Assembly: GCF_000026105.1 (NCBI RefSeq)
Contig: NC_008027.1
Span: 5,824,781-5,888,780, forward strand
From: Pseudomonas entomophila L48
GTDB taxonomy: Bacteria > Pseudomonadota > Gammaproteobacteria > Pseudomonadales > Pseudomonadaceae
Length of the DNA stretch: 64,000 nucleotides
Reading direction: 5' to 3'
The notes beneath the pieces were generated by a model, which was given only the letters and a program-made list of their open reading frames with translations, made no database searches and had not been told where the DNA came from. The translations under genes were made by a program, and so were the position numbers. Positions 22,436 through 43,650 of the stretch are shown piece by piece. Numbering within the stretch: position 1 is the first letter of the stretch; each line of letters starts with the position of its first letter.

Positions 22436-22627
22436 ATGCCAGACGTAGGGATTTTCCTCAGATGACGAACTGCAACATGGATCACGGATTAAATGGAATA
22501 TTTGAAGGTTGGGCTTGGTCGATAAGAGCGCCGCAAGTGAACCGACATCGAACTGCGCCCACCGGTTTGCAAGCGATATAAATCGACCCAGCTGCGCACC
22601 GCCCGATTGCAGCAACCGTTAAGATCA

Positions 22628-23254
22628 CTAGCCAACTGAGGCGCGGCCAACAGCACCGTGTTGCCGAACGATGCCTTTAGCCACCAGGTAATCGAAAATA
22701 GCGCCCACCACCTCGTTCACAGTGTGCGTGCTGGTATCGAACGCCAGATTGGGTCGAACGGGGGGCTCATAAGGTGAATCTATGCCAGTGAAATTCGCAA
22801 GTTCCCCAGCCCGAGCCTTGCGATAGAGCCCCTTCGGATCACGTCGCTCACAGTCGGCGAGCGACGTGCTGAGAAACACTTCAACGTATTCATCTTCATT
22901 GAGCAGTTGGCGAACCAGATGACGATCCTTCTCGTACGGCGATATAAATGCACAGGACACAATCAGCCCTGCATCGTTGAACAACTTGGCCACCTCGCCA
23001 ACTCGGCGGATATTTTCCACGCGATCTTGCTCGCTAAAGCCCAGGTCTTTGTTCAGCCCTTGACGCACGTTATCTCCGTCCAGCACATAGGTATGGCAGC
23101 CGCGCCGGTGCAGCCAGCCATCCAAGGCGTTGGCAATGGTCGACTTGCCACTTCCACTGAGCCCGGTGAACCAGATAGTGCAGGGGCGATGTCCATTCAT
23201 TTCGACTCTTGCCAACCGGCTGGTGGCATGACCATGCCAATGCAGATCCTTCAT
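22628..23254 (-). CDS. cysC: Dedicated adenylylsulfate (APS) kinase
   Basis: Phosphorylates APS to PAPS, the sulfate donor of sulfotransferases. The 208-residue protein has the P-loop TIWFTGLSGSGKSTIANAL, the substrate motif YVLDGDNVRQGLNKDLGFS, ISPYEKDR and DPKGLYRKARAGE, all standard for CysC. It lacks a CysN domain. It is the last gene of the 13-gene operon, 15 bases after the M28-like gene, with AAGGAAG before the start. Pseudomonads normally make PAPS for assimilation with CysNC or reduce APS directly. A separate kinase here most plausibly feeds the sulfotransferase domain encoded 4 kb upstream in the same operon. Confidence 0.93.
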   Translation of the reverse strand: MKDLHWHGHATSRLARVEMNGHRPCTIWFTGLSGSGKSTIANALDGWLHRRGCHTYVLDGDNVRQGLNKDLGFSEQDRVENIRRVGEVAKLFNDAGLIVSCAFISPYEKDRHLVRQLLNEDEYVEVFLSTSLADCERRDPKGLYRKARAGELANFTGIDSPYEPPVRPNLAFDTSTHTVNEVVGAIFDYLVAKGIVRQHGAVGRASVG

Positions 23255-23269
23255 ATTTCAAGCTTCCTT

Positions 23270-24391
23270 TTATTGTTGTGCTGTTGCCTGTTCAAGGATG
23301 AAACGCTCAAGCGCCTGGCAGATACCTGCAAGCTTCGGCATATCCACCGCATCTGGGAAACGGTCATCGGGATGGTGGAACAACGCATTTCCACCTTGCA
23401 GCGACAGGTAGTTCGCTTGTCGTGGGATCTGCTCACCCTCACCCGAAAGGGCACCGCCTCGCGGCGCAATGATGTCGGGTTCGATACCCTTGGCATTCAG
23501 GGCGTGCAGGAACGTCTGTTCGATCATTGCGTTTGACGCTTGCATGAAAAACAGCGGGTCATGCCGCGCGGAAAAGTTCGCCCCCAAGTGCACCCAGAGG
23601 TGCGCATCTTTGGGCAAGACCTCCCGAACCAGCTGCTTCATTCCGAGATAACCAAGCTCATGCCCGCTGCTGACTGCAAGAATCACCGTTCGCTGCACAT
23701 CGGTGTCCCGAAGGGCTGAGGCAAGGCTGACCATCGCTGCCAGCCCACCGCCCCGTTCGGACGCACAATGCCACCAGCCTGTACGAGGAGTGAATACGAT
23801 GATGGGGGCAAGATCGCCCCTTGCACCCTGCTTTATCGCAACGATATTGCTTGAGCGACGGGGCTGACGAATGACCCGGGAGTGCAAGGTTGCTGCCAAG
23901 TTTTGCTCGGCCAACGCCAGCAAGCGCGCCCGTTGCTCGCCCGAGACGAAAAACGTAGGCACTTGCAAGGGGGCTTCAAAGTGCTCGGCATTAGGGGGCG
24001 TGAGGCCGGGGCGCGACCCCATGGTGATGACGATCATCGCTGCTGCACGGCTGTTTTCGCGTATCTCGGTGAGCTGTGTATAACCCATGGTCGAACTTTG
24101 AACGACCTGAATGCCCTCGGTGGTCCGCGTGTCGATCTCCGCCTGCAGTTCCAACCGCTCCGGGAGCAGAGAGTCATGACAAGGCATGAGTTCAAACTGC
24201 TCGGTACCAATCTGTAGCTGGCAGCAGTGATCTGTGATGACGTCCAATGAAAATGGTCGGCTAACGATCTCCAGGCCCAAGCCGGTCAACGCATCGACAA
24301 ACCATTGTGCTACCGCTTTATCCTGCTCGGCACCTGTACGGTGAGGCCCCATCTGATCATACCGGGCCAGCAATTTTTCGATCTCAAGCAT
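23270..24391 (-). CDS. M28-like zinc peptidase homologue with altered metal ligands
   Basis: A 373-residue protein with the general plan of M28 aminopeptidases: an inserted PA-like segment (residues ~60-180) within the peptidase core. The expected first ligand pair (His-x-Asp) is replaced by FTPRTGWWHC (200-209), and the bridging Asp aligns with Glu212 (SERGGG). HELG (244-247) and HHPDDRF (339-345) keep possible Glu and His ligands. There is no signal peptide, so it is probably cytoplasmic. It sits between the amidotransferase and APS kinase genes, 15 bases from each. It may be a catalytically changed hydrolase, a glutaminyl-cyclase-like enzyme or a non-catalytic partner; I cannot choose. Confidence 0.7.
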   Translation of the reverse strand: MLEIEKLLARYDQMGPHRTGAEQDKAVAQWFVDALTGLGLEIVSRPFSLDVITDHCCQLQIGTEQFELMPCHDSLLPERLELQAEIDTRTTEGIQVVQSSTMGYTQLTEIRENSRAAAMIVITMGSRPGLTPPNAEHFEAPLQVPTFFVSGEQRARLLALAEQNLAATLHSRVIRQPRRSSNIVAIKQGARGDLAPIIVFTPRTGWWHCASERGGGLAAMVSLASALRDTDVQRTVILAVSSGHELGYLGMKQLVREVLPKDAHLWVHLGANFSARHDPLFFMQASNAMIEQTFLHALNAKGIEPDIIAPRGGALSGEGEQIPRQANYLSLQGGNALFHHPDDRFPDAVDMPKLAGICQALERFILEQATAQQ

Positions 24392-24406
24392 TCCCTGCTC
24401 CTGAAA

Positions 24407-26335
24407 TCAGAGTGTCAAATTGAACTGCTTTTGCAGGGAACAAGCGCTGGCCACCTGAATGAGCAGTGCATCTGCGCCCGCTTGCACGTTGGCGGGCAAG
24501 TTCGGGATGTTGTTGATCAGCGCCAGCAGCTTGCGGTTGTCATAAAACGGCAGGTCCTGAGCGGTACTGCTGTTGAGCATGTCACAGACGAATGCCTGCA
24601 AGGCACCATGGCTGGCCCGGGATATGGCCGGAGCCATGAACGGCTGTTTCTGACGATCGAAGATGCTCTGCGGAATCAGCTCACGTACCGAAGACCTGAG
24701 TAGGTGTTTTTCACGCTCGAGGTGGATTTTCTGGCTGACTGGAATGCCCGCGCAGAACTCGGCCAATGCGTGATCCAGGAACGGAGGGCGCCCTTCAATG
24801 GAGTGGGCCATTTCCATTCGATCACCCAACACGCTGAGCATGTAGTTGGGAAACGACGTCTTGTTCCACAAGTAAAGCGATTGATTGACCTCGTCACGCC
24901 CCTTGAGCTGACGCGAAACATCGAGCCCATCGAGGAAGGCAGCGATGCTGTCCCGGCCCTGCATCATCGAGAGGAACTCAGGTCGGTAGAATGACGAGTA
25001 CAGCTTGAAGCGGCGAATACTGCCTGCCAGTTGAGCTGGCACATAACCGAGCAAGGACCGGATAAACGCATGCTCGCTTCCCGATTCCTCCGACAACAAC
25101 AGGCCGATGGAGGTCTTGTTGGCAAGTTTGAGCGCGTCCAACTTGCGCTCCAGTTCCTCACGATCCATTTCGCCAGCCTGAGACATCAGCAGGTCCTGGC
25201 GGAAGATCGGGTATCCCGCGAGAATTTCGTCGGCCCCTTCGCCGGTGAGCACGGCTTTCAACCCCTGCGCCCTGACGGCCTTCGATAGCAGGAACTTGGC
25301 GACGCCGTGCGGGTTGATAAACAGGGACTCCGCATGCCAGACCGCCTGGTCAAAATGAGTCGCGAGATCGGCATCGCTCACATCGACGCGGTGTAGCCGC
25401 GACCCTGTGAAGTCCGCCATTTCCCGAGCCATGTCGAACTCGTCATAGAGTCCGTCGTTGAAGGAGATGGTAAAGGCATCCAGGGGTTTCCCAGCCAGCG
25501 CGTTGGCCATGCCCAATATGCTGCAGGAGTCCAGACCTCCGCTGAGGTAGCAACCCACTGGCACATCGGCATCCAGACGTAGCCTGACCGCATCGGCGAA
25601 CAGCGCCTTGAACGGTTCCACATAGTCCTGCGGGCTGCGCTTGTCCTGCGCAAGTGTTGCCTGCGTGGCAAAGGTGGTGTCCCAATAGCCAACGGTTCGC
25701 ACATGCCCTGTGCTTGCCAGCAGGAAGTGCCCCGGTGGCAGTTGCTTGACTCCACGGAAGAAACTGCGGTCGTTGTGCAGGATCCCGGCATCAAAGTCAT
25801 AGACGCTCTGCACATCCCAGCGCGGCTCGACACCCAGGGCCAGCAGAGCCTTGATCTCGGATGCCAGGTACAGGTCATCCCCGTCCTGATGGTAAAAGAG
25901 TGGCTTGACCCCAAAGCGGTCCCTGCCGGCGAACAGCTGCTGTTTACGACCATCCCAGATAATGAAGGCGAACTCACCTCGGAGGGATTGCAGACAGGCG
26001 GTTCCTTGCTCCAGGTACAACGCCAGGAGCACTTCACTGTCGGAGGCGGTCTTGAATTGATACCCCTTGCCCGCCAGCAGCCCACGTAGTTCGCGGTGCC
26101 CATAGATCTCACCATTAACGACGGCCACCACGTCCTGCGAGGCCGCGTGCAATGGCTGTTGTCCATGTTCGAGATCGACCAGGCTCAACCGAGCATGTCC
26201 GAGGGCCACCTTGCCATCAGGTGCGATCCAGCTGCCTGAGCCGTCTGGGCCACGGTGCCCGAGTACCTTGATCGCTTGCTGCAACTGCCGTTGCTCGATG
26301 GTCGAAGCCTTGATGACGCCGATGATGCCGCACAT
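24407..26335 (-). CDS. Asparagine-synthetase-like glutamine amidotransferase in the biosynthetic operon
   Basis: Two-domain enzyme of 642 residues. The N-terminal Ntn glutaminase begins MCGIIGV, so Cys2 is the expected nucleophile, and it has HRGPDGSGSW and VNGEIYGHREL. The C-terminal synthetase domain has the pyrophosphatase loop CYLSGGLDSCS, LTGEGADEILAGY and the ATP-site EGRPPFLDH. It therefore looks able to adenylate a carboxylate and transfer ammonia from glutamine. Its ATG shares one base with the stop of the upstream desaturase (TAATG). Placement in a fatty-acyl/polyketide operon suggests it amidates a pathway intermediate or substrate rather than serving asparagine supply, but that is inference. 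Confidence 0.82.
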   Translation of the reverse strand: MCGIIGVIKASTIEQRQLQQAIKVLGHRGPDGSGSWIAPDGKVALGHARLSLVDLEHGQQPLHAASQDVVAVVNGEIYGHRELRGLLAGKGYQFKTASDSEVLLALYLEQGTACLQSLRGEFAFIIWDGRKQQLFAGRDRFGVKPLFYHQDGDDLYLASEIKALLALGVEPRWDVQSVYDFDAGILHNDRSFFRGVKQLPPGHFLLASTGHVRTVGYWDTTFATQATLAQDKRSPQDYVEPFKALFADAVRLRLDADVPVGCYLSGGLDSCSILGMANALAGKPLDAFTISFNDGLYDEFDMAREMADFTGSRLHRVDVSDADLATHFDQAVWHAESLFINPHGVAKFLLSKAVRAQGLKAVLTGEGADEILAGYPIFRQDLLMSQAGEMDREELERKLDALKLANKTSIGLLLSEESGSEHAFIRSLLGYVPAQLAGSIRRFKLYSSFYRPEFLSMMQGRDSIAAFLDGLDVSRQLKGRDEVNQSLYLWNKTSFPNYMLSVLGDRMEMAHSIEGRPPFLDHALAEFCAGIPVSQKIHLEREKHLLRSSVRELIPQSIFDRQKQPFMAPAISRASHGALQAFVCDMLNSSTAQDLPFYDNRKLLALINNIPNLPANVQAGADALLIQVASACSLQKQFNLTL

Positions 26336-27336
26336 TAGTGTTCCTCACTCACCACAGAGGTGTTGTCCGTTGACTGTCGTTTGCTGTCGATGAACGCTTG
26401 TCCGGTCGTCCTGATCTCCCATGCAAGGCCGATGACGCCCAGTGCCCTGATGATCGAACCCGTCAGGTCCAACTGCCACCACTCCACCTGCGTCGTGGCC
26501 GAAGCAGGAAATGCATGATGATTGTTGTGCCAGGCGGCACCGAGTGTAGGCAGGGCCAGCCAGGCGAGGTTGGTGCTCTTTTCCTGGGTTCTGAACGGGC
26601 GGCTGCCAAATCGATGGCAAAACGAATTCACGATGTACACACCGTTCTGGACAAACCAGATCCTGGCCAAGCCGGCCAACAGGAAACCTTTCAACGCACC
26701 TTCCCACATGCCACTCCAAACGAACGAAGCGAGCGTGGGAATGGCTAGGCCAAGCAGCACCCAAACGAGGTAATAGCGTGTGACGAAAGCGATCAGCGGG
26801 TCACGCAGCAGGTCGGCGGCAAACGCCGAAACATTCACATAACGGTTACCGAACGACCATCCGACATGAGCATGCCAAAGGCCGCGGATACCACTCACCG
26901 CGCCGTTCTCGTCAAACCATGGCGAGTGGGTATCGAGTTCGGTATCGGTGTACTGATGATGGCGCCGGTGATTGGCAACCCAGAATGCCGCCGGTCCCTG
27001 GGCCGCAAAGGCACCCAGTACAGCCAGAACGAACCGGGTGCGCTGGCCTGTCTTGAACGCACGGTGCGCCAAGTAACGGTGGTAAGCACCCTCGATGCCA
27101 AAAAAGCTGGTGACGTACATGAACACGAACAGCCCAAGATCGAACCCATCAAACCCCCAGTAGATCGCAACGGGGATGCAGGCCAGGGCCCCGCACAGTG
27201 GGATGCCATTGAACAACAGGCTAAGCATTCGCTGGCGTCGAATCAGGGTCGGGTCGCTGATCGTCACACGTACCGGTGCCGTCCTCGTGGCAGCCGACAC
27301 TTCGGAATCAGGCTGTGGTCTCAGAGTGCTCGTCAT
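26335..27336 (-). CDS. Membrane fatty-acyl desaturase (second of two in the cluster)
   Basis: Integral-membrane di-iron desaturase of 333 residues. The three histidine boxes are present in the expected order and spacing: HRYLAHR, NHRRHHQ and HNNHH. Hydrophobic helices lie between them (LFNGIPLCGALACIPVAIYW, FVLAVLGAFAAQG, WVLLGLAIPTLASFVW). AGGAGG six bases before the ATG at 27336 fixes the start, which lies inside the end of the KR-ACP-ST-TE gene (29-bp overlap). It is clearly related to the desaturase at 37.8-38.7 kb yet differs in sequence. By analogy with ACP-dependent desaturases it may act on an ACP-bound chain. Confidence 0.88.
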   Translation of the reverse strand: MTSTLRPQPDSEVSAATRTAPVRVTISDPTLIRRQRMLSLLFNGIPLCGALACIPVAIYWGFDGFDLGLFVFMYVTSFFGIEGAYHRYLAHRAFKTGQRTRFVLAVLGAFAAQGPAAFWVANHRRHHQYTDTELDTHSPWFDENGAVSGIRGLWHAHVGWSFGNRYVNVSAFAADLLRDPLIAFVTRYYLVWVLLGLAIPTLASFVWSGMWEGALKGFLLAGLARIWFVQNGVYIVNSFCHRFGSRPFRTQEKSTNLAWLALPTLGAAWHNNHHAFPASATTQVEWWQLDLTGSIIRALGVIGLAWEIRTTGQAFIDSKRQSTDNTSVVSEEH

Positions 27337-30300
27337 CGCGCACCTCCTGTATTGGCGAAATACCTGGGTTGCGAGTGATGATTCGGGTGACTTCATCGGG
27401 ATGTTGCAGATGCAGGTTGTGACCGCCGTCGATAAAGGTCACACAATCATCGTCCAGGCCTTGGGCCTGTAACTCGATGTCCTTGCGTCGGTTGGACCGG
27501 CTATCGCGGCCAAACACGATATGCACATCAACTTCCAGCGCATGCAGTATTTGCAGATAGGTATCCCGGTCCAGCCCAAGCCCAAGGCCAGCACGAAATC
27601 GAAGCCTGGGATCCCATGTCCAGCGCCGCTCACCATCGTCCCCTACCGTGGTCATTCGCTCCGCCAGTTCACAGGCCCTGTCCTGTGTAAGGAAGGAAGA
27701 GACCGCACGAATCCGCTCTGCGGCCTGTTGCAATGACCCCAGCGGCAGATGCTCATGGGGCGCTGCGAGAAACTGGACCATCTCACGATAGAACAGTCGA
27801 GGATCATGGCGTTTCTCTGCCAGCAGCACCGGCTCGATGAGCCAGAGCTTCTTCACCCTTTCAGGGAATGCGGCTGCATAGGCTACCGCGATGACCGCCC
27901 CGAACGAGTGAGCGACCAGTTCAAGCGGCTGTGTGCCAGAAGCTCGGTGCACAGCATCGGTATCCATGACGTAGTCCAGCAAAGCAGGCAACCGCTGCGG
28001 CGAACCGTGCCCGCTCAGGCCATGCCCACGGATGTCCGGAGCAATACAGGACCTTCCCGATGCGTACAGGTTTTGGGCAATGTCATCCCAGACCGTCGCC
28101 TGATCCAGCAGCCCATGCAAGCACAGATAGTCCGGGTGTTCGTATCGGCCCCAGGCACTGACGCTCAGTGAAACTTCACCCGCTTGCACATTCAGCGTCT
28201 GACGGGCCGCTTCGTCACGCTTGGCTGACGCTGGCAACGCCTCGTCGTAACCAAGCCGCCCGGCCAATGCAACAGTCTGGGGCCATAACGGACGATCCAG
28301 TGAACGGTGCCGCCAGGCGTCGGCGAGCGAAGCATCCACGCGGTCTCGCTTGAGAAAGTTCGGATCCTCGATGGCCAGAGAGCCCTCACGCACGCCGTCA
28401 TTCATCCGCCCTACGCCGTACGGCATGGTCATGGATGGCTGGAACTCGATGTCCAGAAATGCACAAATGCCGCGCAGGGTCGTCTCGGGGTCCCTTACCA
28501 GGGTTTCATAGTCGACGCGTAATACCCGTTCGGCCTCGACGTGACGGGCAAAAAACGCTTCCAGATTGAGGTTACCCTCAAGCCAGATCCGTTCGGCCGT
28601 GGAGATACCATCGTTGTCCTGCTGACCTAACAACTTGTGCATGCGCATGCGACTGAACGACTCGATCATCGCCAGGGGATTGCGCACCAGATGGATGTAA
28701 CGCGGTTTGTCGAACGCAAGCTCCGCTTGCAGCAATGCCTTCGGGTTGGAGGCATAACTGGGAGACTTGTCCACCAGCAAACCACAGCCGGAACGTTCGC
28801 GCATGAAGCGGTAAACCTCTGCGACCGCAATATCCTGGTCGACCCACTGACCAAGCAGCGACACTGCCTCGTCGAGCGAGCCCTCATGCAGTTCCATCAA
28901 GGCGCGCTGCAGCCCCTGGTCGAAATAGTTTTCCTTCGTCGCTTCATGCCATTGCGCAAGCGAGGTGTACCCCAGCAGGTGCAGCTCGGGTGGCGCGAAT
29001 ACCTGATCATGCCCCTGCAACATTGCACGCAGCAACGTGGAGCCGGACCGTGGGCTGGACAGAATGAACGCCACACCTGGCACCCGATCCGCAACGTCCT
29101 GCACCACCCCAGCCAAATCGGCCAGGGGGCTCAGGTAATCCTCATGCCGCTGCCTGCTATCGCCGCCCGCAAGAGGTTCGTCGTTGCCTGCCCTGAGCTG
29201 CCCGGCCAGGTAGTGGGCAAATTGCGACAGGGTCGAGTGGGTGTACATTTCCCGGGGATAGATAATCAATCCGAGATCCATCCGAACCGTCTTCAAGATT
29301 TCCATCAGTACCAGGGAGTCCAGGCCCCAGGCTTCGATACTGGCGCTAACATCGAGTGATTCAGTGGCGACAGTGGCTGCAGCACGGAACAGACCCAGCA
29401 GGTAATCCTGTAGCGCATGCTCCCTGGCCTCGTCACTTTCCAGTGCCAGGAGCCTCTCGGAAACCGCCAGGCCTCGCACCTCCGGTCGCTGCATCGGCGC
29501 CTTCAGGAGCTGTCCGACCAAGGCCTGGCTCAGCTTTCCATCCAGACGTGCCTGCAACTGCGCCCAATCAACTCGCGCGTGCAGCCAATGACGAATCGAA
29601 CGGGAGGCCAAGGCTCCTAGACAATCGGCCAACGCTTCCACTTCGAGTGGATGAACGCCCAGTCCTTCCCAGCCCGAGCTGGCTGAAAACCCGGACATCG
29701 AAGCCATGCCCACGCCCAGCAAGGGCCCACTGTTAATCGTGTGCATCCGTCCATTGCAGCGGTCAGCCAAGTGATCGAGAAATGCGTTCGCGGCGCAGTA
29801 GCTGGCAGCGCCATGCGTTCCGACCAAAGAAGTGATGGAGGAAAGGGCGTAGTGATTTGTTGCCACGTCGTCGAATATTTCCAGCAGGGTTGCGCCACCC
29901 AACACCTTGGGCGCCAGCACCAACCAGTCATCTTCCTCGCTCGCATCGAAGATGCTGCTCTGCTTGACCGTTCCCGCCAGGTGAAAGACCGATTCGATTC
30001 TTGCGCCCTGCTGTTCCAGGTGGAGCTTGAGGCTGAGCACCTGTTCGGGCTCACGGACATCAACACTGAGATAGGTGATGCCCTCCTCGACCTGTGCCGA
30101 GGGCCTGCGACCCACGTGCCAGATACGGGTTGCCCCTTGGCGAGTCAGCTCAGCGCTCAAGTGCTTGCCGACTTCGCCAGCCCCTCCCACGATCAGGCAG
30201 TTGCCCCACGATTGCCCATGGCCAGAGTCCAGGAATTGTTCGGCGACCGGCCGCAACATCCGAAAGTGAACGGCCCCGTTCCTGTAGACCAACTGACGCT

Positions 30301-30997: not shown

Positions 30998-31008
30998 CTC
31001 ACCCAGCC

Positions 31009-32442: not shown

Positions 32443-32453
32443 GGTGGCGCTCC

Positions 32454-34463: not shown

Positions 34464-34499
34464 GGATTCATTCCGAAAGGTCTTAGGCGTTGTCGATCT

Positions 34500-36611
34500 T
34501 CAACCGGCGTGAAGCCAGCATCGGACGGAATCGAAGTGATAGGTGGGTAGCAAGGGGAAGAGCAGCGTGTCGTGAGCACTGAGCAGATGACCGTCGAAGG
34601 TATGTCCCAGGCACCAAAGTTCGGCGAGCGCATGGGCCAGATCATCGAAACGTGTACCGTCCTGCAGAACGAACCGCCCCCCGGCTTGCCTTGCTCCAGC
34701 AGTCACGATTTCCAGTACGGCTAATGAGTCCTGGGGGCTTTTCGGCTGTCGCGCAAGAAATGCTTCGAGTGCCTGGGTATTGCTCAGGACCTTGACCGCC
34801 TGACCCGCCTCCAGCCGTGATTCCAGATAGGCTGGCAGCAGAGCGCCGAGCCCCCTGTACCGGATGACGTCATCGAACAATTGGGTCGCGATGATCTGTT
34901 CCACCGCCCTCAACGTGGATAGAAATCCTCTGAGCGGTGCCGATGCGAGGTCACCCATGCAGGAGGTGCCCAGCAGTTCGGAAAATGGCAAGGGAATATC
35001 GAACGATGCCCCATCATCACTATGGTGCTCACCCTCCTCGAGGGAGAACGACACACCGATCGTGGTTGGGCGACGTTGCGGGCAATGCCGCACATGTCTA
35101 TCAGGCTCGGCCAGGACGGCCTCTATGCCCTCGATCCATTCGCCAATGTGCTCACCGGTGATTGCAACACGCCAGGCAAATGCATCACGCCGAAGCAGTT
35201 GCCTGGCCAGTGTCCCGCGGTCCGCTTCCCGGTAACCCGGCAATGCCTTGCGCAAGGATGCCAGCATGGCAAGCAGTGATGTCTTCGATTTGGCCGAGAC
35301 CACCAGCAAGCGGTCAACGCAACTTGATGCCTGGCTTGTCATCAAATTGCTGTGCGCCTTGAGCAGGGCGAATCCATTGGTTCCGCCAAAACTGAAGCCG
35401 CTGACCCCAATCAACCCTTGGGCCAATGAAGCGTCGCTACGGTGCTCTTGGGACACACGCAAGGTGCCTTCGGCATATTTATAGAAGCGATTTGGCCGAG
35501 AGAAATGCAACGTAGGGTAATACTCGCGAAAATGCGCCATACAGGCGGCCTTGATCAACGAGGCAATACCGGAAGCAGACTCCAGATGGCCAATATTGGT
35601 CTTTATCGATCCAACCTGTACCGTTTGCTTGGCCGAAGAAGTCCTGACCAGCTCATCTAGAACCTTCAGCTCGATGGCATCCCCCATCAGCGTGCCCGTG
35701 GTATGGGTTTCGACATAGCACAACCGCTCCACACCAGCCTCCACAGCGCCGAAGGCCTTGGCTAGAAGACGCTTCTGGGCTTGTACGTTCGGTGCGGAAA
35801 AACCGTTGCTCGCGCCTCCATGATTGACTGCGGTCGATACCACTGACGCCCAGATCCGTGCTTGTGCCGCAAGGGCATCGGCGTGGCGCTGGAGCAACAC
35901 CACACCGCAGCCTTCGGCACGCACGTAGCCATTTGCACCATCGTCGAAGGACCGGCAACGGTCGTCCGAAGAAATGATCCCAGCCTGCATGTGTGCAACC
36001 GTATTGGCGGGATGAAGCATGCCGTTCACGCCGCCGACTATCGCGGCGTCGATCTCGCCACTGCGCAATGCGGCGACCGCCTGATGAAGCGCCACGAGTG
36101 AAGACGAACACCCCGTGTCCACCACCAGGCTGGGCCCCTGAAGATCATGGAAGTAGGAAAGTCGATTGGCCGCAGTTCCCAACGCTGTTCCCGTGGCACT
36201 GTGCTTACTCAACTCGGCGGGCTGTGCGAACAGCATGCGATGGTAGTCGGCATTGGTCGCGCCGATGTATACACCTGTATTGCTTCCACGCCAGGTCGAG
36301 GGAGCAATACCTGCATTTTCGAACGCTTGCCAGGTGACCTCCAGCAACAGGCGTTGCTGAGGGTCCAGGTGTTCCGCTTCATCCTGGGACATGCCGAAAA
36401 AGAGCGGGTCGAACAACTCTATCCCGTCGACAAACCCCCCCTTCGGAAAATCCCCTGCCAACCAGTCGAGTGCGGGGTCGCCTTCGCGTAACCGCCCAGC
36501 TGGCATCCCGCTCACCACCTGACGTCCCTGGCGTAGAAGCTCGACGAACGCGCTCAAGCTCGCGGCCCCCGGAAACCGGCATCCCATGCCTATGATCGCT
36601 ACATCCGTCAT
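34500..36611 (-). CDS. Polyketide ketosynthase with a vestigial acyltransferase region
   Basis: A 703-residue protein. Residues 1-420 form a complete type-I KS: DTGCSSS (Cys168; Gly replaces the usual Ala), ETHTTGT (His303, unusual for EAHGTGT) and KTNIGH (His342). The remaining ~280 residues keep the shape of the post-KS linker and an AT-like fold and end with LLPTYHFDSVRCWL, the usual post-AT tail, but no GHSxG serine motif or AT histidine can be found. It therefore probably needs malonyl delivery by another AT. The start at 36611 (MTDVAIIGMGCRFPG) is chosen because the KS begins there; an in-frame extension of 67 residues upstream looks non-coding. Confidence 0.87.
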   Translation of the reverse strand: MTDVAIIGMGCRFPGAASLSAFVELLRQGRQVVSGMPAGRLREGDPALDWLAGDFPKGGFVDGIELFDPLFFGMSQDEAEHLDPQQRLLLEVTWQAFENAGIAPSTWRGSNTGVYIGATNADYHRMLFAQPAELSKHSATGTALGTAANRLSYFHDLQGPSLVVDTGCSSSLVALHQAVAALRSGEIDAAIVGGVNGMLHPANTVAHMQAGIISSDDRCRSFDDGANGYVRAEGCGVVLLQRHADALAAQARIWASVVSTAVNHGGASNGFSAPNVQAQKRLLAKAFGAVEAGVERLCYVETHTTGTLMGDAIELKVLDELVRTSSAKQTVQVGSIKTNIGHLESASGIASLIKAACMAHFREYYPTLHFSRPNRFYKYAEGTLRVSQEHRSDASLAQGLIGVSGFSFGGTNGFALLKAHSNLMTSQASSCVDRLLVVSAKSKTSLLAMLASLRKALPGYREADRGTLARQLLRRDAFAWRVAITGEHIGEWIEGIEAVLAEPDRHVRHCPQRRPTTIGVSFSLEEGEHHSDDGASFDIPLPFSELLGTSCMGDLASAPLRGFLSTLRAVEQIIATQLFDDVIRYRGLGALLPAYLESRLEAGQAVKVLSNTQALEAFLARQPKSPQDSLAVLEIVTAGARQAGGRFVLQDGTRFDDLAHALAELWCLGHTFDGHLLSAHDTLLFPLLPTYHFDSVRCWLHAG

Positions 36612-36637
36612 CACCCTGGTCCTTTTACCTGTGCTGC

Positions 36638-37522
36638 CTACCGAAGCCCTTGGGCGGGCCGGTCGATTCGCTTGAACGTGATCCGCACAAGCCCCATCGA
36701 GCCGGTCTTGAAACCGACCATGCACATTTGCAGGTAAAGGTTGTAACGGTCGTATACGGCCTGACCAAAACGCTCGCAGATGATCTGCTTGTTGCGCTTC
36801 AGGGCCTGCCACCAGGCTTTTTGGGTCAGGTAGTAATGCATCCTGTCATTGCGCAGTCGCTCGACCTCAAACAGGCCATCTGCCGCCTGAATGATTTCGA
36901 ACATGCGCGGAAGGTCCGATTCCGGGAATATTTCGTTGGCGAAGAATGGGCTGAAATCCTCACGGGTCGAGTTCTCGTAGGTAATGGTCTGCAGCGAGAT
37001 GCGGCCACCCTCGACCAGCCAGCCGTGACAACGCTGGAAGAACGCGCGATAACCGGCGACCTTCTGCTCCACCGTCTGATCAAGGTTGGCAAAATGTTCA
37101 AACGCACCGACGGAAATGATGCTGTCGTACCGTGATGAAGGCTGATGGTCCTGCCAGTTCTCGACACGGACATCGACGCCTGGCAAGCCAAGCGTGTCGA
37201 TATACAGTTTCTGCGCGTCGCTCAGGGTGAGCCCCACGGCATGCTGTACGTCATGCTTCCTGACCAGACTCTCCAACGTCCCACCCCAACCGCAACCGAT
37301 GTCGAGGACATTGGCCGCGCCTTGGCTGGCTGCCTGGGTAATGTGGTAGTCGACCTTGCGCTGCTGAGCCGTGATGAAATCATCCTCGGGTTCGAACAAT
37401 GCCGCGGAATAGCAGCGCGTCTGCGGATCGAGCCAGAGATGATAGAACTCGTTTGACAGATCGTAGTGCGACTGGATCGCTTCCTTCGAAGCACCGATCG
37501 CCGGGGCGGTTGGGGTGGCCAT
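36638..37522 (-). CDS. Cyclopropane-synthase-like SAM methyltransferase
   Basis: A 294-residue protein of the cyclopropane-fatty-acid/mycolic-acid synthase family: SHYDLSNEFYHLWLDPQTRCYSAALF with the conserved Cys, the SAM loop VLDIGCGWGG (72-81) and SVGAFEHFANLD. Compared with the 394-residue housekeeping Cfa in this window, it lacks the ~100-residue N-terminal phospholipid-binding domain. That suggests a carrier-protein-bound or free substrate. It lies between the free ACP and KS genes (18- and 26-base gaps). Expected chemistry is cyclopropanation or methylation of a cis double bond made by one of the cluster's desaturases; which of the two cannot be read from sequence. Confidence 0.88.
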   Translation of the reverse strand: MATPTAPAIGASKEAIQSHYDLSNEFYHLWLDPQTRCYSAALFEPEDDFITAQQRKVDYHITQAASQGAANVLDIGCGWGGTLESLVRKHDVQHAVGLTLSDAQKLYIDTLGLPGVDVRVENWQDHQPSSRYDSIISVGAFEHFANLDQTVEQKVAGYRAFFQRCHGWLVEGGRISLQTITYENSTREDFSPFFANEIFPESDLPRMFEIIQAADGLFEVERLRNDRMHYYLTQKAWWQALKRNKQIICERFGQAVYDRYNLYLQMCMVGFKTGSMGLVRITFKRIDRPAQGLR

Positions 37523-37540
37523 ATCAACTCCTCGATGGGT

Positions 37541-37795
37541 TCAAGCTGCAGCAGTCTCACTGGCTTCCCAGGCATGGGTAGCCAATGCCTCGATGGTGGG
37601 GTGCTCATAGACAACGGTGGGGTCGATTTCCGTGCTGAGCCAGTCGGACAAATCCCCCGTCATGCCGATGACTGCAGCCGAATCAAGGCCAAAGGTGCTG
37701 AACGGAACATCCTGTGCCACCTCAGCCTGATCGATCCCAACCAGATCCGCGATATAGGCAACCAGCCAGTGTTTGATCGTTGTCTTCTTATCCAT
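37541..37795 (-). CDS. Free-standing acyl carrier protein
   Basis: An 84-residue ACP with the phosphopantetheine site FGLDSAAVIGM. Helix II and the VYEHPTIEALATHAWE segment are typical of polyketide-type ACPs rather than fatty-acid AcpP. The true start at 37795 (MDKKTTIKHW) overlaps the desaturase stop by eight bases; the longer frame runs backwards into that gene. It sits next to the desaturase, two genes from the fatty acyl-AMP ligase. The likely role is to receive the activated fatty acid and present it to the desaturase and the Cfa-like enzyme. Confidence 0.9.
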   Translation of the reverse strand: MDKKTTIKHWLVAYIADLVGIDQAEVAQDVPFSTFGLDSAAVIGMTGDLSDWLSTEIDPTVVYEHPTIEALATHAWEASETAAA

Positions 37796-38747
37796 GTTGC
37801 TCTCCGGACCTCTCCGTCCTGTGCTGTGGTAATCGAATGTCGGTGGCCAAACCCAAGGCAGCCAACAACCTGATGAACCAGTACCCGATATCCATGTCCC
37901 AGAGACTGCCGGCGAATCGCGCCGATGCAGGGAATGCGTGGTGATTGTTATGAAACGATTCACCCACCGTCAGCGGACCCAGCAGCCAGATGTTGGTGCT
38001 TCTGTCATGCGTGGCATGGCGCCGACTGCCGAGCAGATGAGTGAGTGAATTGATCGCACTGGTCGCGTGGTAAGACAGGCAGACCCTGAACATGCCCCCC
38101 CAAAGCAAACCTTCCAGGGCACCGTAGAGACTGCGAGTGAGAAGCCCCCCCAAGACACAAGGAATGAGCAGACTGAGTCCGACCCAGTAGTAGTACTTGG
38201 CCGAAATCCAGCAGATATCCTTGTCACGCAACAAGTCCTTGGCATAACGAGCGGGTTGAGTGAGTTGGTGCTGGTACGTCCAAGCCACCTGAGCGAACCA
38301 GAACCCCTTGAGTCGACGCCAGGGCTCGGTGGGTGACAGTAGATTCGGAGAGTGTGGGTCACCCTCCTCGTCGCTGAATTCGTGGTGACGGCGATGATTG
38401 CTGACCCAGTAAATCGGCGTGCCCTGCGCCGTCATGCTGCCTAGGATGGCCAACAGGCATTTGGTATATCGACCGGTCTTGAAACTGCGGTGGGCGAAAA
38501 GCCGGTGATATCCCACCGAGCCTCCCAGCATCGTGAGCAGGTAAAGTACGGCAAATGCACTGAGGTTTTGCCACGCTACACCATGATGAAATGCCAGGAA
38601 GAACGCCAGCAAGGAGCCTATGGCGGGCACCCATAGCAGCGTCAGCGCATGCAGGCGCTGGAACCGCCGCAAGTAAGGGCTCGTAATGGTGATCCCTTTG
38701 AGCGCATCCGGTGATCGGGCTCTGCGCGGCAGCACTTCCATGTTCAT
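37788..38747 (-). CDS. Membrane fatty-acyl desaturase (first of two in the cluster)
   Basis: A 319-residue membrane di-iron desaturase with histidine boxes HRLFAHR, NHRRHHE and HNNHH, plus several transmembrane helices. GGAG seven bases before the ATG at 38747 fixes the start. It lies directly between the acyl-AMP ligase (19-base gap) and the ACP gene (8-bp overlap), the same neighbourhood seen for ACP-dependent desaturases in polyyne clusters. That supports action on the loaded acyl-ACP. It would create the cis double bond that the Cfa-like enzyme needs. Confidence 0.88.
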   Translation of the reverse strand: MNMEVLPRRARSPDALKGITITSPYLRRFQRLHALTLLWVPAIGSLLAFFLAFHHGVAWQNLSAFAVLYLLTMLGGSVGYHRLFAHRSFKTGRYTKCLLAILGSMTAQGTPIYWVSNHRRHHEFSDEEGDPHSPNLLSPTEPWRRLKGFWFAQVAWTYQHQLTQPARYAKDLLRDKDICWISAKYYYWVGLSLLIPCVLGGLLTRSLYGALEGLLWGGMFRVCLSYHATSAINSLTHLLGSRRHATHDRSTNIWLLGPLTVGESFHNNHHAFPASARFAGSLWDMDIGYWFIRLLAALGLATDIRLPQHRTERSGEQHG

Positions 38748-38766
38748 AGGTTTGCTCCTTGTCCAA

Positions 38767-40470
38767 TCAGGCCTGAAGTAACTCGCCGCGCTCGAAACGT
38801 GCAGCCGTTTCAGCTCGACGGAGCTTTCCGCTTGAAGTCTTCGCAACCCCCTTGGGCTTGATGAGCATCACTGCATCAGGCGCAATCCCATGCTGCTCGA
38901 TGATCCGCTGCCGAATGGCACAGACCATCTGCTCACGGGTATGCGGGTCCAGTTCACCTTTTTCCACTTCGTGTACCAGCACCAGACCTTCTTGCTCCCC
39001 TGCGCGCTGACTGAACGCGACGCCGCAGTTTTCCCGCAGACCGGGGGTGGCAAGAAATGCCGTCTGCTCGATGTCTTGTGGGTAGTAATTGCGACCGCGG
39101 ATGACGATCAGGTCTTTCAACCGTCCCGTAATGTAGAGCTCTTCATCCTTGAGGAAACCGAGGTCGCCTGTGCGATAGAAGACGACTTCAGGCTCGGTTT
39201 CGAAATAGGCGCCAAAACGTTCGCGTGTGGCGGATGGGTTGTCGAAGTAGCCCTGGGCCACAGAAGAACTGGCAACCCACACTTCGCCAATGTGCATATC
39301 CTGTTTGCGCGCACCGGTTTCGGGATCGACGATCGCCACCCGTGAGCCATTGATCGGGCGGCCATTGCTGACAAGCAAGTCACCAGGTGCATCGGGTCGT
39401 GCCGCAACGGCAAGTCCCAGTTGCAGGCTGTTTCTGTCCAGCTCAAGTACCCTGAGGCCAGCCCCTGCCGTTGGCCCGGTCACGATCAGGGTCGTTTCGG
39501 CCATTCCGTAACAAGGGTAGAAACTCGAAGGCGCGAATCCATACCGGGAGAAGCGCTTGGCAAATGCATCTAGCACCTCATGACGCACGGGTTCAGCACC
39601 GCAATAAGCTATTCGCCAACTGCTCAGGTCGAGGCCCACGCACTCTTCATCCTTGATTCGAGCCAAGCAATGGGCAAACCCGAACGTCGGCCCTCCCGAT
39701 GTAGTCCCCCTGTAGTCACTAATAGCCCTGAGCCAGCGCACAGGCTTCTGCACGAACTCAAGTGGTGACATGTGGATGCAGGTGATCCCCAAGTACAAGG
39801 GCTGCAGAACGTTTCCGACCAACCCCATATCGTGGAACAACGGCAACCAGTTCACCCCAACAATGTGTTCATCGTTGGCAAATCCTGATTGAATCATTTC
39901 AAGATTGTTGACTAGGTTGGCGTGAGAAATGACCGCCCCCTTGGGATCCCCCGTTGATCCGGAGGTGTACTGAATAAACGCCGTTGCCTGCGAATGCGGC
40001 GAATCGGGTGACCACTCCGTCTGCTCAGCGACAAATTCATCTGTCGCCAGTTTGCCGAGCTCGCCGAACACGTCAAAATCGAACCGCTGCATCAGCCCAC
40101 TGCTACTCAAGACATACTCGATGCGTGCGTCATCTATGATTTTCTTGAATCGATCCAGGGCATGAGGCTGTGTGGGCGTATTGACAGGTACGGGCACGGC
40201 ACCGGCATACAAACAGGCAACAAATGCCTTGATGAACTCTAGCCCACTGGGATAGATCAGTAAGATGTTCCGACCTTGCAGGTTTTGTGTGCACAAATAC
40301 AGTGCCAGTGACCTTGAAAAAGCATCAAGCTCACCAAAAGTCAGAATCTCTTCGGTCTGCCGTGTAATGAATACAAAAGCAGCCTTGTCGGCATGGGCAG
40401 AGGCATGCAAGCGACAACTATCAACAATATTGCAATGCGCGCGCGCAGGCGCCAGACAGGCATGAGGCAT
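38767..40470 (-). CDS. Fatty acyl-AMP ligase (loading enzyme)
   Basis: Activates a free fatty acid with ATP and passes it to an ACP. The 567-residue adenylation enzyme shows the P-loop TSGSTGDPKG (169-178), the FAAL hallmark LPLFHDMGLVGNVLQPLY, SFYPCYGMAET, TGDLGFL, GRLKDLIVIRGRNYYPQDIE and a C-terminal SSGKLRR lysine. The FHDMGL and YYPQDIE forms favour a FAAL over a CoA ligase. It is the second gene of the operon, after the KS-AT. In the cyanobacterial Ols protein the same domain is fused at the N-terminus; here it is separate. Confidence 0.92.
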   Translation of the reverse strand: MPHACLAPARAHCNIVDSCRLHASAHADKAAFVFITRQTEEILTFGELDAFSRSLALYLCTQNLQGRNILLIYPSGLEFIKAFVACLYAGAVPVPVNTPTQPHALDRFKKIIDDARIEYVLSSSGLMQRFDFDVFGELGKLATDEFVAEQTEWSPDSPHSQATAFIQYTSGSTGDPKGAVISHANLVNNLEMIQSGFANDEHIVGVNWLPLFHDMGLVGNVLQPLYLGITCIHMSPLEFVQKPVRWLRAISDYRGTTSGGPTFGFAHCLARIKDEECVGLDLSSWRIAYCGAEPVRHEVLDAFAKRFSRYGFAPSSFYPCYGMAETTLIVTGPTAGAGLRVLELDRNSLQLGLAVAARPDAPGDLLVSNGRPINGSRVAIVDPETGARKQDMHIGEVWVASSSVAQGYFDNPSATRERFGAYFETEPEVVFYRTGDLGFLKDEELYITGRLKDLIVIRGRNYYPQDIEQTAFLATPGLRENCGVAFSQRAGEQEGLVLVHEVEKGELDPHTREQMVCAIRQRIIEQHGIAPDAVMLIKPKGVAKTSSGKLRRAETAARFERGELLQA

Positions 40471-40513
40471 GGCGTGTAATCCTGAAACTTATTGTATTTA
40501 TCGAGGATGGCGT

Positions 40514-43276
40514 TCAGCTTGAATGTGCAATGGCTTCGACGATATCCGCCAAGTCTTTTTCAGAGAAATAACTCGCCAGCCTCTGTTCCGCTGAATAGCA
40601 GTTCTGATTGAAACGGTAAGGGGGCAACAGATCGGCGCGTTGCGCGGAGTCATGTAGTTTGCCCCATGAGATACCTTGGCCTGACTCAAATAACGCAGAC
40701 AATGTCGACATCCATTTGAAACTGTCATCCTGGTTTTTGTCCAGGGAGCTCAACGTCTGGTGTTCGCCGCCATTATCAAGCTCGTTGATCAATGTAGCCA
40801 TTTGTCTGCCTGGGCCGATTTCCAGAAACAGGAACCGGCGCGTACTCATCAATGCACGTACAGCATCGGCAAAGCGCACCGTGTCTCTGATATGCCTCAC
40901 CCAATAATCGGGTTGCGCAAGTCTGGTGATTTCTAGCTTGCCGGTTAGTGTGGAATAAAACGGCAAGCTCGGCACCTGAGGTGTAATGCCCTCGATGGCC
41001 GTCGCATAGGCTGGAAGCACAATATCCATTTGCTGGGAATGATAGGCTCGTTCGACGTCCAGACGTTTGTGCGCAATATCAGCTGCCTTCAAGGCCTCTC
41101 GACAAGCCAGCTCATCTTCGCAGGAAAGGGCCAGCACACAGCTCTGGGGCGTGTTGATCGCGGCTACCGAAAATGGGATGTTTCCCAGAGCCCCATTCGC
41201 CTGCTCGGCACTGGCATGAACGGCATACATACACCCTTCTGTGACATTACCCTCGATCAGCCTTCCCCGGTGCCAGACCATTCGGGCAGCCTGCTCCAGG
41301 GTCAAGACACCAGCGCAGCAGGCCGCTGCATATTCACCCAGGCTATGGCCGATTACTGCATCCGCAACGACACCGACACCCGCCCAACAACGCGCCAATG
41401 CATACTGGAGGGCGAAGGTGGTGACCTGTACCTGCGAGACGCTCAACGATTTCTTTGCTTCGAACAAGCAAGCCAGAAGATCGAATTCAAAATGTTCCTG
41501 GTAGAACGAAGCGACTTCATCCAGTGCTTGGCGGTACAGTACGTTAGTGCGATAGAGCGACTGGCTCATTCCAGGGTAATGCCCACCTTGGCCGGCAAAC
41601 ACCAGGCAGACCGGTAATCGCTCACGGTACCCGCCCTCCTTCCCTGCCAAGGTGCGATCAAGGTGTTCAAGCAACCCTTGCCTATCGGCAACCGGATAGG
41701 CAAAGCGTGCTGGCATTTGTGATTTGTACCGATTGCTCGCCCGGCAAAATGGCATCAGCTCAGCAGCCTCAAGTGCTGTTACATGAGCTCGCAGCTGCTG
41801 CAACTGCAGGCGTAACGCATCATGGTCGGGTGCACTGAGCGTCAGGCAGCCTGCGCCATCCATCTCGACCTCATCAGGGTCATCGGCGCTGGAAACAATC
41901 ACATGAGCGTTGGTACCGCTCATGCCAAAACTGCTGACAGCGGCGACTCGCGATGCGCCCCCTCTTGGCCAGGGGTGGCTGCTAGTCGCAACACAGAGTT
42001 GACTACGTGACCAGTCGAAGTGGGGAGTAGGCGACGAACAATGGAGCGAGGGCACGATCCGGCCATGCCGCGCACTCAATACAGCCTTGATCAAGCCAGC
42101 CAGGCCAGCAGCCGCTTCAAGATGACCGATATTGCTTTTCACCGACCCAATCCAGGTCTGTTCGGTCTTGCCATAGTGTCGGGCCAACGCACCGAGTTCT
42201 ATGGGATCACCCAGCGGCGTCGCAGTGCCATGACATTCGACATACCCGACGTCTGCGGCATCCATACACGCATTTTCAAGCGCTTTGCTGATAACTTCCT
42301 GTTGAGCGATACCGCTTGGGGCAGTCATGCCATTGGACTTCCCGTCATGGTTGACTGCAGAGCCGCGAATAAGCCCCCAGATCGGGAGCTTTTCCTTCTG
42401 CGCATCACTGAGCCGCTTGAGAACCAATACAGCCCCTCCCTCACCTCGGACGTAACCATCAGCATTACTATCGAAGGGGCGACTGCTTCCGCTGCGTGAC
42501 AAAGCCTGCATCGCGGAGAAAGCCACTGAAGCGCCGGGCGTGAGCATAAGATTGACGCCACCGACAAAAGCCGCATCAATTTCGCGGCTGCGTAATGCCT
42601 TGCATGCAAGATCTGCCGCCACCAACGCCGACGAACAACTGGTGTCGACCTGCAACGCAGGGCCACGCAAGTTGTAGAAGTAAGAAATACGCCCGGGCGC
42701 TATGCTCTTCCCACATCCAAGCGCAGACAAAGGCGAGATCCGCTGCCGATCAGCAGAACGCGTGTAAAAATCCGCATAGTCATCACTGGAGAGGCCAATA
42801 TAGACCCCTGTGGCCGAACCACTCAGCGAATGGCGGTCAATCCCGCTGTGTTCCAGTGCCTGCCAGCTGAGCTCAAGCAATAGCCGGTGCTGAGGATCCG
42901 TGCGCCGTGCCTCCTGCTCACTCATCGAGAAAAAGGAAGCATCGAAACCATAGGGGTTATCAATAAGGGCTGCGGTGCTCTGATAAGTGGTGCCGGGCTC
43001 CCCTGCACTCGAGCTGTAACTATCCCCTCCCCAACGCTTATTAAGGAAAGGCTCGATAGAGCAGTGGCCCTTGGCGAGGTTTTCCCAGAAAGCAGCTGGC
43101 GAATCAGCCTTCCCGGGAAATCGGCAGCTCATGCCGACAATGGCAATAGGTTCATGCTGTTGAGCGCGAAGTTTCTCAACTTCAACCTTCAGTGCATTGA
43201 TGCGCAGCAGTGACTGTTTAATTACGTCTGTCGGGGCACCGGATACAGCTGAATTAGACGCACCATCGCTCAACAT
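40514..43276 (-). CDS. Polyketide synthase KS-AT protein
   Basis: First gene of the operon, 920 residues. A short coiled helix at the N-terminus (TDVIKQSLLRINALKVEVEK) looks like a docking element. KS follows with intact triad: DTSCSSAL (Cys214), ECHGTATPLGDPIE (His349) and KSNIGH (His385). Then comes a full acyltransferase with FAGQGGHYPG, GHSLGEYAA (Ser645) and the catalytic His746 in RAYHSQQM, closer to malonyl- than methylmalonyl-type. No reductive domains or ACP are fused, so it must work with separate carriers. The start at 43276 is preceded by AGGGAA; 12 more in-frame residues upstream are possible. It may also supply malonyl groups to the AT-less KS. Confidence 0.92.
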   Translation of the reverse strand: MLSDGASNSAVSGAPTDVIKQSLLRINALKVEVEKLRAQQHEPIAIVGMSCRFPGKADSPAAFWENLAKGHCSIEPFLNKRWGGDSYSSSAGEPGTTYQSTAALIDNPYGFDASFFSMSEQEARRTDPQHRLLLELSWQALEHSGIDRHSLSGSATGVYIGLSSDDYADFYTRSADRQRISPLSALGCGKSIAPGRISYFYNLRGPALQVDTSCSSALVAADLACKALRSREIDAAFVGGVNLMLTPGASVAFSAMQALSRSGSSRPFDSNADGYVRGEGGAVLVLKRLSDAQKEKLPIWGLIRGSAVNHDGKSNGMTAPSGIAQQEVISKALENACMDAADVGYVECHGTATPLGDPIELGALARHYGKTEQTWIGSVKSNIGHLEAAAGLAGLIKAVLSARHGRIVPSLHCSSPTPHFDWSRSQLCVATSSHPWPRGGASRVAAVSSFGMSGTNAHVIVSSADDPDEVEMDGAGCLTLSAPDHDALRLQLQQLRAHVTALEAAELMPFCRASNRYKSQMPARFAYPVADRQGLLEHLDRTLAGKEGGYRERLPVCLVFAGQGGHYPGMSQSLYRTNVLYRQALDEVASFYQEHFEFDLLACLFEAKKSLSVSQVQVTTFALQYALARCWAGVGVVADAVIGHSLGEYAAACCAGVLTLEQAARMVWHRGRLIEGNVTEGCMYAVHASAEQANGALGNIPFSVAAINTPQSCVLALSCEDELACREALKAADIAHKRLDVERAYHSQQMDIVLPAYATAIEGITPQVPSLPFYSTLTGKLEITRLAQPDYWVRHIRDTVRFADAVRALMSTRRFLFLEIGPGRQMATLINELDNGGEHQTLSSLDKNQDDSFKWMSTLSALFESGQGISWGKLHDSAQRADLLPPYRFNQNCYSAEQRLASYFSEKDLADIVEAIAHSS

Positions 43277-43321
43277 GGCAATTCCCTGTGCAGTTATGAG
43301 ATTCCATCTCACGCTAATGCC

Positions 43322-43379
43322 GGAGTATTAATACTCCAATGCGAGCAGGACTATAGAGCATGAGTAATCTTAAGGGCAA
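43322..43379 (-). promoter_or_regulatory. Candidate promoter and operator of the 13-gene operon
   Basis: On the minus strand a TTGCCC (plus 43374-43379) and a TATAGT (plus 43350-43355) are spaced by 18 bases, a reasonable sigma-70 promoter. Just downstream of the predicted start point lies GGAGTATTAATACTCC (43322-43337), a perfect 16-bp palindrome 46 bases before the KS-AT start codon. That is a typical place for a repressor operator; as RNA it could form a small hairpin. No regulator gene is in the cluster. Confidence 0.5.
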
Positions 43380-43400
43380 TAGGTATTCGTACTAATTCCA

Positions 43401-43409
43401 CCCCCCCCC
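43401..43409. repeat. C9 homopolymer in the operon's upstream region
   Basis: Nine consecutive C residues on the plus strand, 125-133 bases upstream of the KS-AT start and about 20 bases upstream of the predicted -35 element. The rest of the 43277-43610 intergenic stretch is AT-rich and holds the promoter, operator and glmS terminator described here; I see no gene in it. Confidence 0.9.
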
Positions 43410-43504
43410 AAAGAACTGACCCACGAGATCAACCCGATGCAATAAGCTCATGATTTCTCTTAACTTTTAACTAAATTTCCTGCTGTTTTCTTTTCCCCCT
43501 GGTA

Positions 43505-43561
43505 GAAAAAAACAAGCCTGACCTCCAGTTTCGCAATATTTGGAAACAAGAGATCAGGCTT
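43505..43561 (-). terminator. glmS terminator
   Basis: AAGCCTGA (43514-43521) pairs with TCAGGCTT (43554-43561), with an inner GTTTC/GAAAC pair. On the minus strand the hairpin is followed by a T-rich run (A-run at 43505-43512 on the plus strand). It closes the glmS transcript and separates it from the operon downstream. Confidence 0.75.
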
Positions 43562-43579
43562 TTGTAACACCTGTTTAAA

Positions 43580-43650
43580 TCGGACGTTTATTTAGTCTTT
43601 GGCAGAATAGTCACTCTACTGTGACCGATTTAGCCAAGTTACGTGGCTGA
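43580..43650 (-). other. attTn7-type site at the glmS 3' end
   Basis: The last codons of glmS (encoding [15 protein letters not shown]) are the conserved TnsD recognition sequence. Tn7 inserts about 25 bases past the stop, here near 43586. No Tn7 end repeats or transposase genes are visible, so the site looks empty, but the accessory operon begins just beyond it. Confidence 0.65.

Follow-up and report, generated by a model that had tools for sequence, protein, structure and literature searches.

A dissociated polyketide line with a sulfotransferase-thioesterase end in Pseudomonas entomophila L48, predicted to release a terminal alkene

Introduction

Release of terminal alkenes through a sulfotransferase (ST) followed by a thioesterase (TE) is so far known mostly from fused cyanobacterial proteins, and the closest described systems are the olefin synthase (Ols) and CurM of the curacin A pathway. 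In the sections of PMC3903477 and PMC11837247 drawn on here, which cover Ols and CurM chemistry and, in the latter, review Ols architecture, Ols loads a fatty acid through a fatty acyl-AMP ligase (FAAL) and an acyl carrier protein (ACP), extends it in a single module with a ketosynthase (KS) and an acyltransferase (AT), and ends in ketoreductase (KR)-ACP and ST-TE, all within one or two proteins (with the FAAL split from the polyketide synthase, PKS, in four strains; PMC3903477) and with no acyl-CoA dehydrogenase (ACAD) or tailoring set described. Outside the cyanobacteria, the portion of PMC6274090 used here proposes that the ST-TE of HlaB (haliamide, Haliangium) leads to a terminal olefin, in a line of PKS and nonribosomal peptide synthetase parts that carries a benzoate unit and is apparently not FAAL-primed. 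Here we describe a 13-gene operon within a window of 64,000 nucleotides (the window being the whole stretch of DNA analysed) at a contig end of Pseudomonas entomophila L48, in which loading, extending and releasing activities are distributed over separate proteins. The species is reportedly named in the CurM literature for an ST-TE tandem, and no product assigned to this operon was found in the open-access literature, a coverage that leaves out most subscription journals.

Results and discussion

A split line with a predicted terminal-alkene end

We read the operon, with a probability of about 60%, as a FAAL/ACAD-ACP/two-KS/KR-ACP-ST-TE line split into proteins and furnished with its own adenosine 5'-phosphosulfate (APS) kinase, for which two extensions are likely and terminal-alkene release is predicted. 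The FAAL would activate a fatty acid and load it onto an ACP, the ACAD-ACP would oxidize the loaded acyl chain to a 2-enoyl-ACP, the KS-AT and the KS would each add malonate with one AT serving both, and the KR would form a 3-hydroxyl on the last ACP. The ST would then sulfate this hydroxyl with 3'-phosphoadenosine 5'-phosphosulfate (PAPS) from the operon's APS kinase, and the TE would hydrolyze the thioester, with CO2 and sulfate lost to leave a terminal alkene. Because the first extension module appears to be without a KR, a ketone may persist, for example in an end group R-CH=CH-CO-CH2-CH=CH2 or an isomer, and the chain may further be tailored by two desaturases, a CMAS-like methyl- or methylene-transferring enzyme, a P450, and an asparagine (Asn)-synthase-like amidotransferase. 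What the sequence shows directly is the genes, their domains, and their residues, from which all of these reactions are deduced. A fuller version is speculative and rather unlikely, namely that this is the first dissociated two-module ST-TE line and makes a reactive terminal-alkenyl enone whose far end is desaturated, methylated, oxidized, and amidated, a class that we know of from no Pseudomonas.

In a culturable, genetically tractable Pseudomonas, a dissociated line that brings its own APS kinase would allow each step to be deleted or assayed separately, including the unproven role of ACAD-ACP proteins in FAAL-primed lines. The compound might add a new metabolite to those of a studied insect pathogen, for which products are assigned to some of the other clusters in the part of PMC10194917 used here, and, if the fuller version is true, a terminal-alkenyl enone would occur in an insect-associated species and in P. 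graminis-like strains.

The operon comprises 13 minus-strand open reading frames (ORFs) running from 43276 to 22628 (Table 1), whose twelve junctions, with gene starts picked from ribosome-binding-site context, measure 43, 19, -8, 18, 26, 36, 11, 11, -29, -1, 15, and 15 bases, with 43 bases the largest intergenic gap and overlaps at three junctions, bearing out the tight one-strand packing claimed in an initial annotation of this DNA. Domain calls (Pfam and NCBIfam) returned the enzymes which that annotation had named and added the Asn-synthase-like and APS kinase proteins, and a fold match added the M28-fold protein. Because the 13 co-directional, tightly spaced genes share matching biochemistry, their packing is not plausibly a product of chance.

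The releasing end

Searches of solved structures placed at the top of the ST matches 4gox (E 2e-71; a chain named only "Polyketide synthase", which we take to be the Ols ST) and the CurM ST 4gbm (E 7e-71), and TE matched 3qit (E 2e-42; again named only "Polyketide synthase", presumably the CurM TE). Homologous ST and TE thus follow one another on one protein in a KR-ACP-ST-TE end like that of CurM; unlike the operon protein, CurM also includes KS and AT, and it has no FAAL. Motifs of all four domains are present, among them the PAPS-loop SSPRSGST of the ST and the Ser and Tyr motifs of the KR.

To the TE we applied the CurM residue numbers and roles as we take them to be, with Ser100, Glu124, and His266 as the triad, Arg205 at the sulfate site, and Asn211 and Asn267 as further positions. 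The 160 aligned rows comprised the first 93 of 120 listed proteins, 80 genomic loci (both sets are described below), and the 3qit row, after removal of eight loci and of six proteins, five because they lacked the motif searched for and one because it was too short; certain sequences occur both among the loci and among the proteins. Across these rows Ser100 was Ser in 160, Glu124 was Glu in 153 (Asp in 6), Arg205 was Arg in 148, His266 was His in 158, Asn267 was Asn in 112, and Asn211 was Asn in 75. The window TE retains the equivalents of Ser100, Glu124, Arg205, His266, and Asn267. Together with the structural matches, this upholds the ST-TE release proposed initially, and terminal-alkene release appears to be the best reading of this end, well supported but unproven. 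In a tree of 56 rows hand-picked from those aligned for the residue mapping (root arbitrary), the window row and seven relatives (P0002-P0008) formed one clade with SH-aLRT 100, the window protein's own branch being long.

Comparison with ST-TE loci and the number of extensions

For gene content we took the best 80 of 334 confirmed ST-TE relatives in a species-genome collection, with flanks of up to 10 kb (some contigs being shorter). These loci were mostly from cyanobacteria, with others from Acidobacteria, Planctomycetota, and one Actinobacteria bin. Matching at E 1e-8 revealed FAAL-like genes in 47 loci, ACAD-ACP in 34 (mostly the ACP part alone), a desaturase in 3, CMAS and APS kinase in 2 each, Asn synthase and P450 in 1 each, and M28-like genes in 0. 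ACAD matches longer than 600 residues came from L027 and L073, in both of which a FAAL-ACAD-ACP stands directly before KS proteins leading to ST-TE; L061 gave a weaker ACAD match (27% over 363) on the opposite strand. The L073 line continues as KS-AT-methyltransferase-KR-ACP-ST-TE with a single KS module. L027 (Nostocales cyanobacterium LEGE 11386), whose FAAL is truncated where the locus stops, reads FAAL-ACAD-ACP, KS-AT-ACP, KS-AT-KR-ACP-ST-TE, DUF6208, and APS kinase.

L027 thus shares with the operon FAAL, ACAD, three ACPs, two KS, KR, ST, TE, and a nearby APS kinase, and differs in that these are fused into three proteins, the second AT is present, DUF6208 lies between ST-TE and APS kinase, and no desaturase, CMAS, P450, Asn-synthase, or M28-like match falls within the locus stretch. 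Judged by domain content, the nearest architecture found is this two-module line and not the one-module Ols. The initial annotation had seen an Ols with its activities on separate proteins; by gene content the predicted FAAL and ACP together with KS, AT, KR, ACP, ST, and TE are indeed all present, and the proteins are separate, whereas the operon departs from the single extension module of Ols and from its fusion into one or two proteins. Because two KS proteins and three ACPs recur as in L027, we prefer a split two-module line to a separated Ols.

Both operon KS proteins keep their catalytic motifs, and the second is 703 aa long versus 920 for KS-AT, its KS part being 41% identical to that of KS-AT across 432 residues; its AT part shows no significant similarity to the first and is without GHSxG. 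The second AT is, by its residues, decayed, with the post-AT LPTYHF left. Two extensions, the first without a KR, are likely on this comparison. Loading of a fatty acid, as proposed initially, gains support from the predicted FAAL and stand-alone ACP genes; top solved chains for the FAAL were named Polyketide synthase and Saframycin Mx1 synthetase B, followed by FAALs such as FadD23 and 3pbk. The ACAD-ACP had been taken for a chain-modifying enzyme, and comparison keeps the modification and moves it to the starter stage. Because some ACAD-ACP relatives (34 of 120 listed, 732 found) carry an AMP-binding/FAAL domain (PF00501 and/or PF23024), the ACAD likely oxidizes the FAAL-loaded starter.

In L027 a DUF6208 (PF19713) gene (13478-14428) immediately follows the ST-TE gene, and in L069 one (5065-6075) comes after both the ST-TE gene and the CMAS gene, which makes DUF6208 a possible partner of ST-TE lines.

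Alternative readings

Several observations weigh against the two-module, alkene-releasing line. The two-extension claim depends on the KS count and the L027 comparison, the action of a single AT in trans on both KS is an assumption, and a KS tree of 39 rows (the L027 module-1 KS left out) ties neither KS to a module, both window rows being long, unplaced branches. FAAL-ACAD-ACP precedes ST-TE in only the two of 80 loci named above, and a FAAL domain is missing from 86 of the 120 ACAD-ACP relatives listed. At the releasing end, the CurM TE Asn211 position is a gap or Gly in the window TE, which as a criterion against a CurM-type TE appears weak, Asn occurring in fewer than half of the rows (75/160); the KR is also without the LDD motif of CurM (HLAGTVKQ versus HAAGVLDD), and the hydroxyl stereochemistry may therefore differ from that in CurM. 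Lastly, an amidotransferase is hard to place when the carboxyl leaves as CO2. In favor of the line, the operon ends with an APS kinase gene despite two other full-length matches in the genome. With these points in mind, the alternative to be taken most seriously, though still unlikely, is a split olefin synthase in which the KS-AT (or the KS) works with KR-ACP-ST-TE for one extension, the second KS being accessory or serving another carrier, and the product being a tailored 1-alkene or, with ACAD, a terminal 1,3-diene. A single extension suffices for Ols lines in the part of PMC3903477 used, the second KS has no AT left, and L073 couples its FAAL-ACAD-ACP to one KS module; set against this are the catalytic motifs kept in both KS proteins and the example of L027, where the same domains form a two-module line with FAAL-ACAD-ACP.

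A different end product would follow if the TE were a plain hydrolase (or acyl-transferring) and the ST left a stable sulfate, giving no alkene but a sulfated or amidated acid that the Asn-synthase-like enzyme would make. The operon amidotransferase has the glutaminase Cys, with a hydroxyamidotransferase as its top solved match, and the six other genomes in a 350-genome class sample that match the ST part only would fit STs with other roles, but the TE triad and Arg205 equivalent agree with a decarboxylating TE and the top two ST matches are those of CurM and, as we assume for 4gox, Ols, which leaves this reading improbable. Very improbable indeed is a decayed or silent cluster that yields nothing: one AT is gone, CMAS positions are altered, and the region is not among the Pvf-regulated clusters in the part of PMC10194917 used here, yet 13 of 13 frames are open, the checked motifs, those of the second AT and CMAS apart, are intact, and in a P. 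graminis-like cassette the ST-TE, ACAD-ACP, and M28-like proteins are still about 48, 65, and 50% identical to those of the operon. We retain the two-module line with predicted alkene release as our working interpretation.

Tailoring enzymes and the M28-fold protein

A cyclopropane had been part of the initial product prediction and has become doubtful because the operon CMAS-family enzyme has Gln in place of the His (in HTIT or HGIT) and Ala in place of the Cys (in YSCAYF) that are common to CmaA2 and the in-window CfaB, the His presumably having a bicarbonate role; we rejected cyclopropane as a firm product prediction. An amide and an oxidation at the far end of the chain, also foreseen initially, are possible. 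The two desaturases share 38% identity. Elsewhere, L069 (a cyanobacterial bin) has a CMAS-family gene right after its ST-TE gene (3874-4971), likewise with Gln at the His position, and the window itself encodes a full-length CfaB-type cyclopropane fatty acid synthase and a cardiolipin synthase near the operon (Table 1).

The M28-fold protein, encoded by the twelfth gene, had no Pfam or NCBIfam match, and most of its 120 listed relatives (P0241-P0360) are without a Pfam domain and bear names that say nothing of function. Its family has its own His/Glu/Asp set, invariant in 54 rows and possibly other than the canonical metal-ligand motifs, with SERGGG, GHELG, and H-x-GA motifs invariant or nearly so. 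A catalytically dead M28 relic was rejected as a firm reading, the family keeping its own invariant residues.

Table 1. Features of the operon, in order of transcription, and of its surroundings (window coordinates).
Feature	Length (aa)	Position	Strand	Evidence or remark
KS-AT	920	40514..43276	-	KS Cys and both His, AT GHSLGEY present; no KR, DH, or ACP domain found
FAAL, stand-alone	567	38767..40470	-	domain search; FAAL models among top NCBIfam matches
Fatty-acid desaturase 1	319	37788..38747	-	all three His boxes kept
ACP, stand-alone	84	37541..37795	-	GLDS serine kept
CMAS/Cfa-family SAM-dependent enzyme	294	36638..37522	-	SAM motif retained
KS with putatively decayed AT	703	34500..36611	-	GHSxG absent; post-AT LPTYHF retained
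ACAD-ACP	669	32454..34463	-	FEG glutamate and ACP serine kept
Cytochrome P450	477	31009..32442	-	FGGGGRSCIG and ETMR motifs
KR-ACP-ST-TE	1229 (1217 if ATG at 30961)	27308..30997	-	domains and motifs
Fatty-acid desaturase 2	333	26335..27336	-	all three His boxes kept
Glutamine-hydrolyzing Asn-synthase-like amidotransferase	642	24407..26335	-	N-terminal Cys (MCGIIG)
M28-peptidase-fold protein	373	23270..24391	-	fold match
APS kinase	208	22628..23254	-	predicted PAPS supply for ST
Leader, glmS stop to first operon gene		43277..43610	-	terminator-like hairpin by eye; promoter-like site 43379-43350
Upstream: glmS, then DeoR-type regulator, glmU		43611-45446 (glmS)		NCBIfam
Downstream: three genes resembling hcnABC				gene order and PMC10194917 (part of source)
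CfaB-type cyclopropane fatty acid synthase		16551-17735	-	NF040703, over cut-off
Cardiolipin synthase		15058-16515	+	

Distribution, genomic site, and origin

Within the genus (398 genomes), the family (398), and a set of relatives (392; the samples overlap), ST-TE was found in the window's own genome only, and in the 350-genome class sample every reported stretch of the six other matching genomes lay within the ST part. None of the 80 loci is Pseudomonas by title, records near the window's genome having possibly been excluded; plasmids gave 137 records (best-ranked at 30.5% identity, with no Pseudomonas among the 20 listed), and 42 pattern matches on viral contigs included 0 that were confirmed. 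A protein search for ST-TE (7,994 best candidates scored, 146 found, 120 listed) revealed the seven relatives P0002-P0008 (47-48% identity), of which two carry the name Pseudomonas in a source. Among the matches listed, ACAD-ACP has a P. graminis relative at 65% and closer ones at 92% (on a 3,421-base contig) and 75% (13,587 bases), and the M28-like protein likewise has relatives at 84 and 60%. Because the longest-contig sizes are identical (24,427 and 17,662), we infer that relatives of ST-TE, ACAD-ACP, and M28-like protein share one P. graminis-like contig of 24,427 bases, and those of ST-TE and ACAD-ACP one contig of 17,662 bases. On these protein matches, there are other carriers of operon-related genes. 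The parts used of PMC13037486, on P. graminis, and of PMC8719888 concern a siderophore and other clusters, respectively.

The assignment of the DNA to Pseudomonas is consistent with the hcn-like genes downstream, which fit the PSEEN gene order in the part of PMC10194917 used, where hcnCBA of L48 are PSEEN5520-5522 and genes are plotted up to PSEEN5559. By counting from the hcn genes, and not from the record, the operon would be PSEEN5523-5535. The first hcn-like gene had no NCBIfam match and the other two matched general oxidoreductase models only.

The operon has a GC content of 57.6% versus 63.4% to its left and 60.4% to its right, and a mean third-position GC of 0.66 versus 0.77 in 13 other chosen minus-strand ORFs. 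We compared about 8 kb downstream of glmS in ten of 18 other same-genus genomes (ORFs of at least 120 codons), which had no gene in common with the window at E 1e-20 (the self-hit control worked); at 1e-5 there were two weak partial matches, which fell on a single frame at the far end of the window. Pfam searches of ten proteins from six of these stretches identified TnsA-, TnsB-, TnsC-, and TnsD-like proteins in L103, TnsA- and TnsB-like proteins in L096, a TniQ match barely above cut-off in L094, chemotaxis receptors in L095 and L098, and a borderline AAA match in L102. The operon thus occupies a glmS site that Tn7-like elements use in some relatives, which fits its horizontal gain. No tns products appeared among the neighbor proteins given domain scans, and 13000-43640 held no convincing flanking repeats, the longest direct repeat there being 70% over 80 nt between the operon CMAS gene and the in-window cfaB gene.

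The leader hairpin after glmS is visible by eye only and was not listed by the terminator scan, and the promoter-like site in the leader is not above chance expectation. No promoter-like sites were found on either strand of 22200-41800 (7.2 expected from shuffles), 41800-42900 being excluded from the scan, and nothing in the promoter and terminator scans exceeded shuffles in either of the two stretches covered.

Genome-wide, APS kinase gave three full-length matches including the operon's, and two more that were weak and partial. A second stand-alone APS kinase (L086, G000:C1:777610-778059) lies about 12 kb from a second, weak sulfotransferase match elsewhere in the genome (L002, G000:C1:765924-766250).

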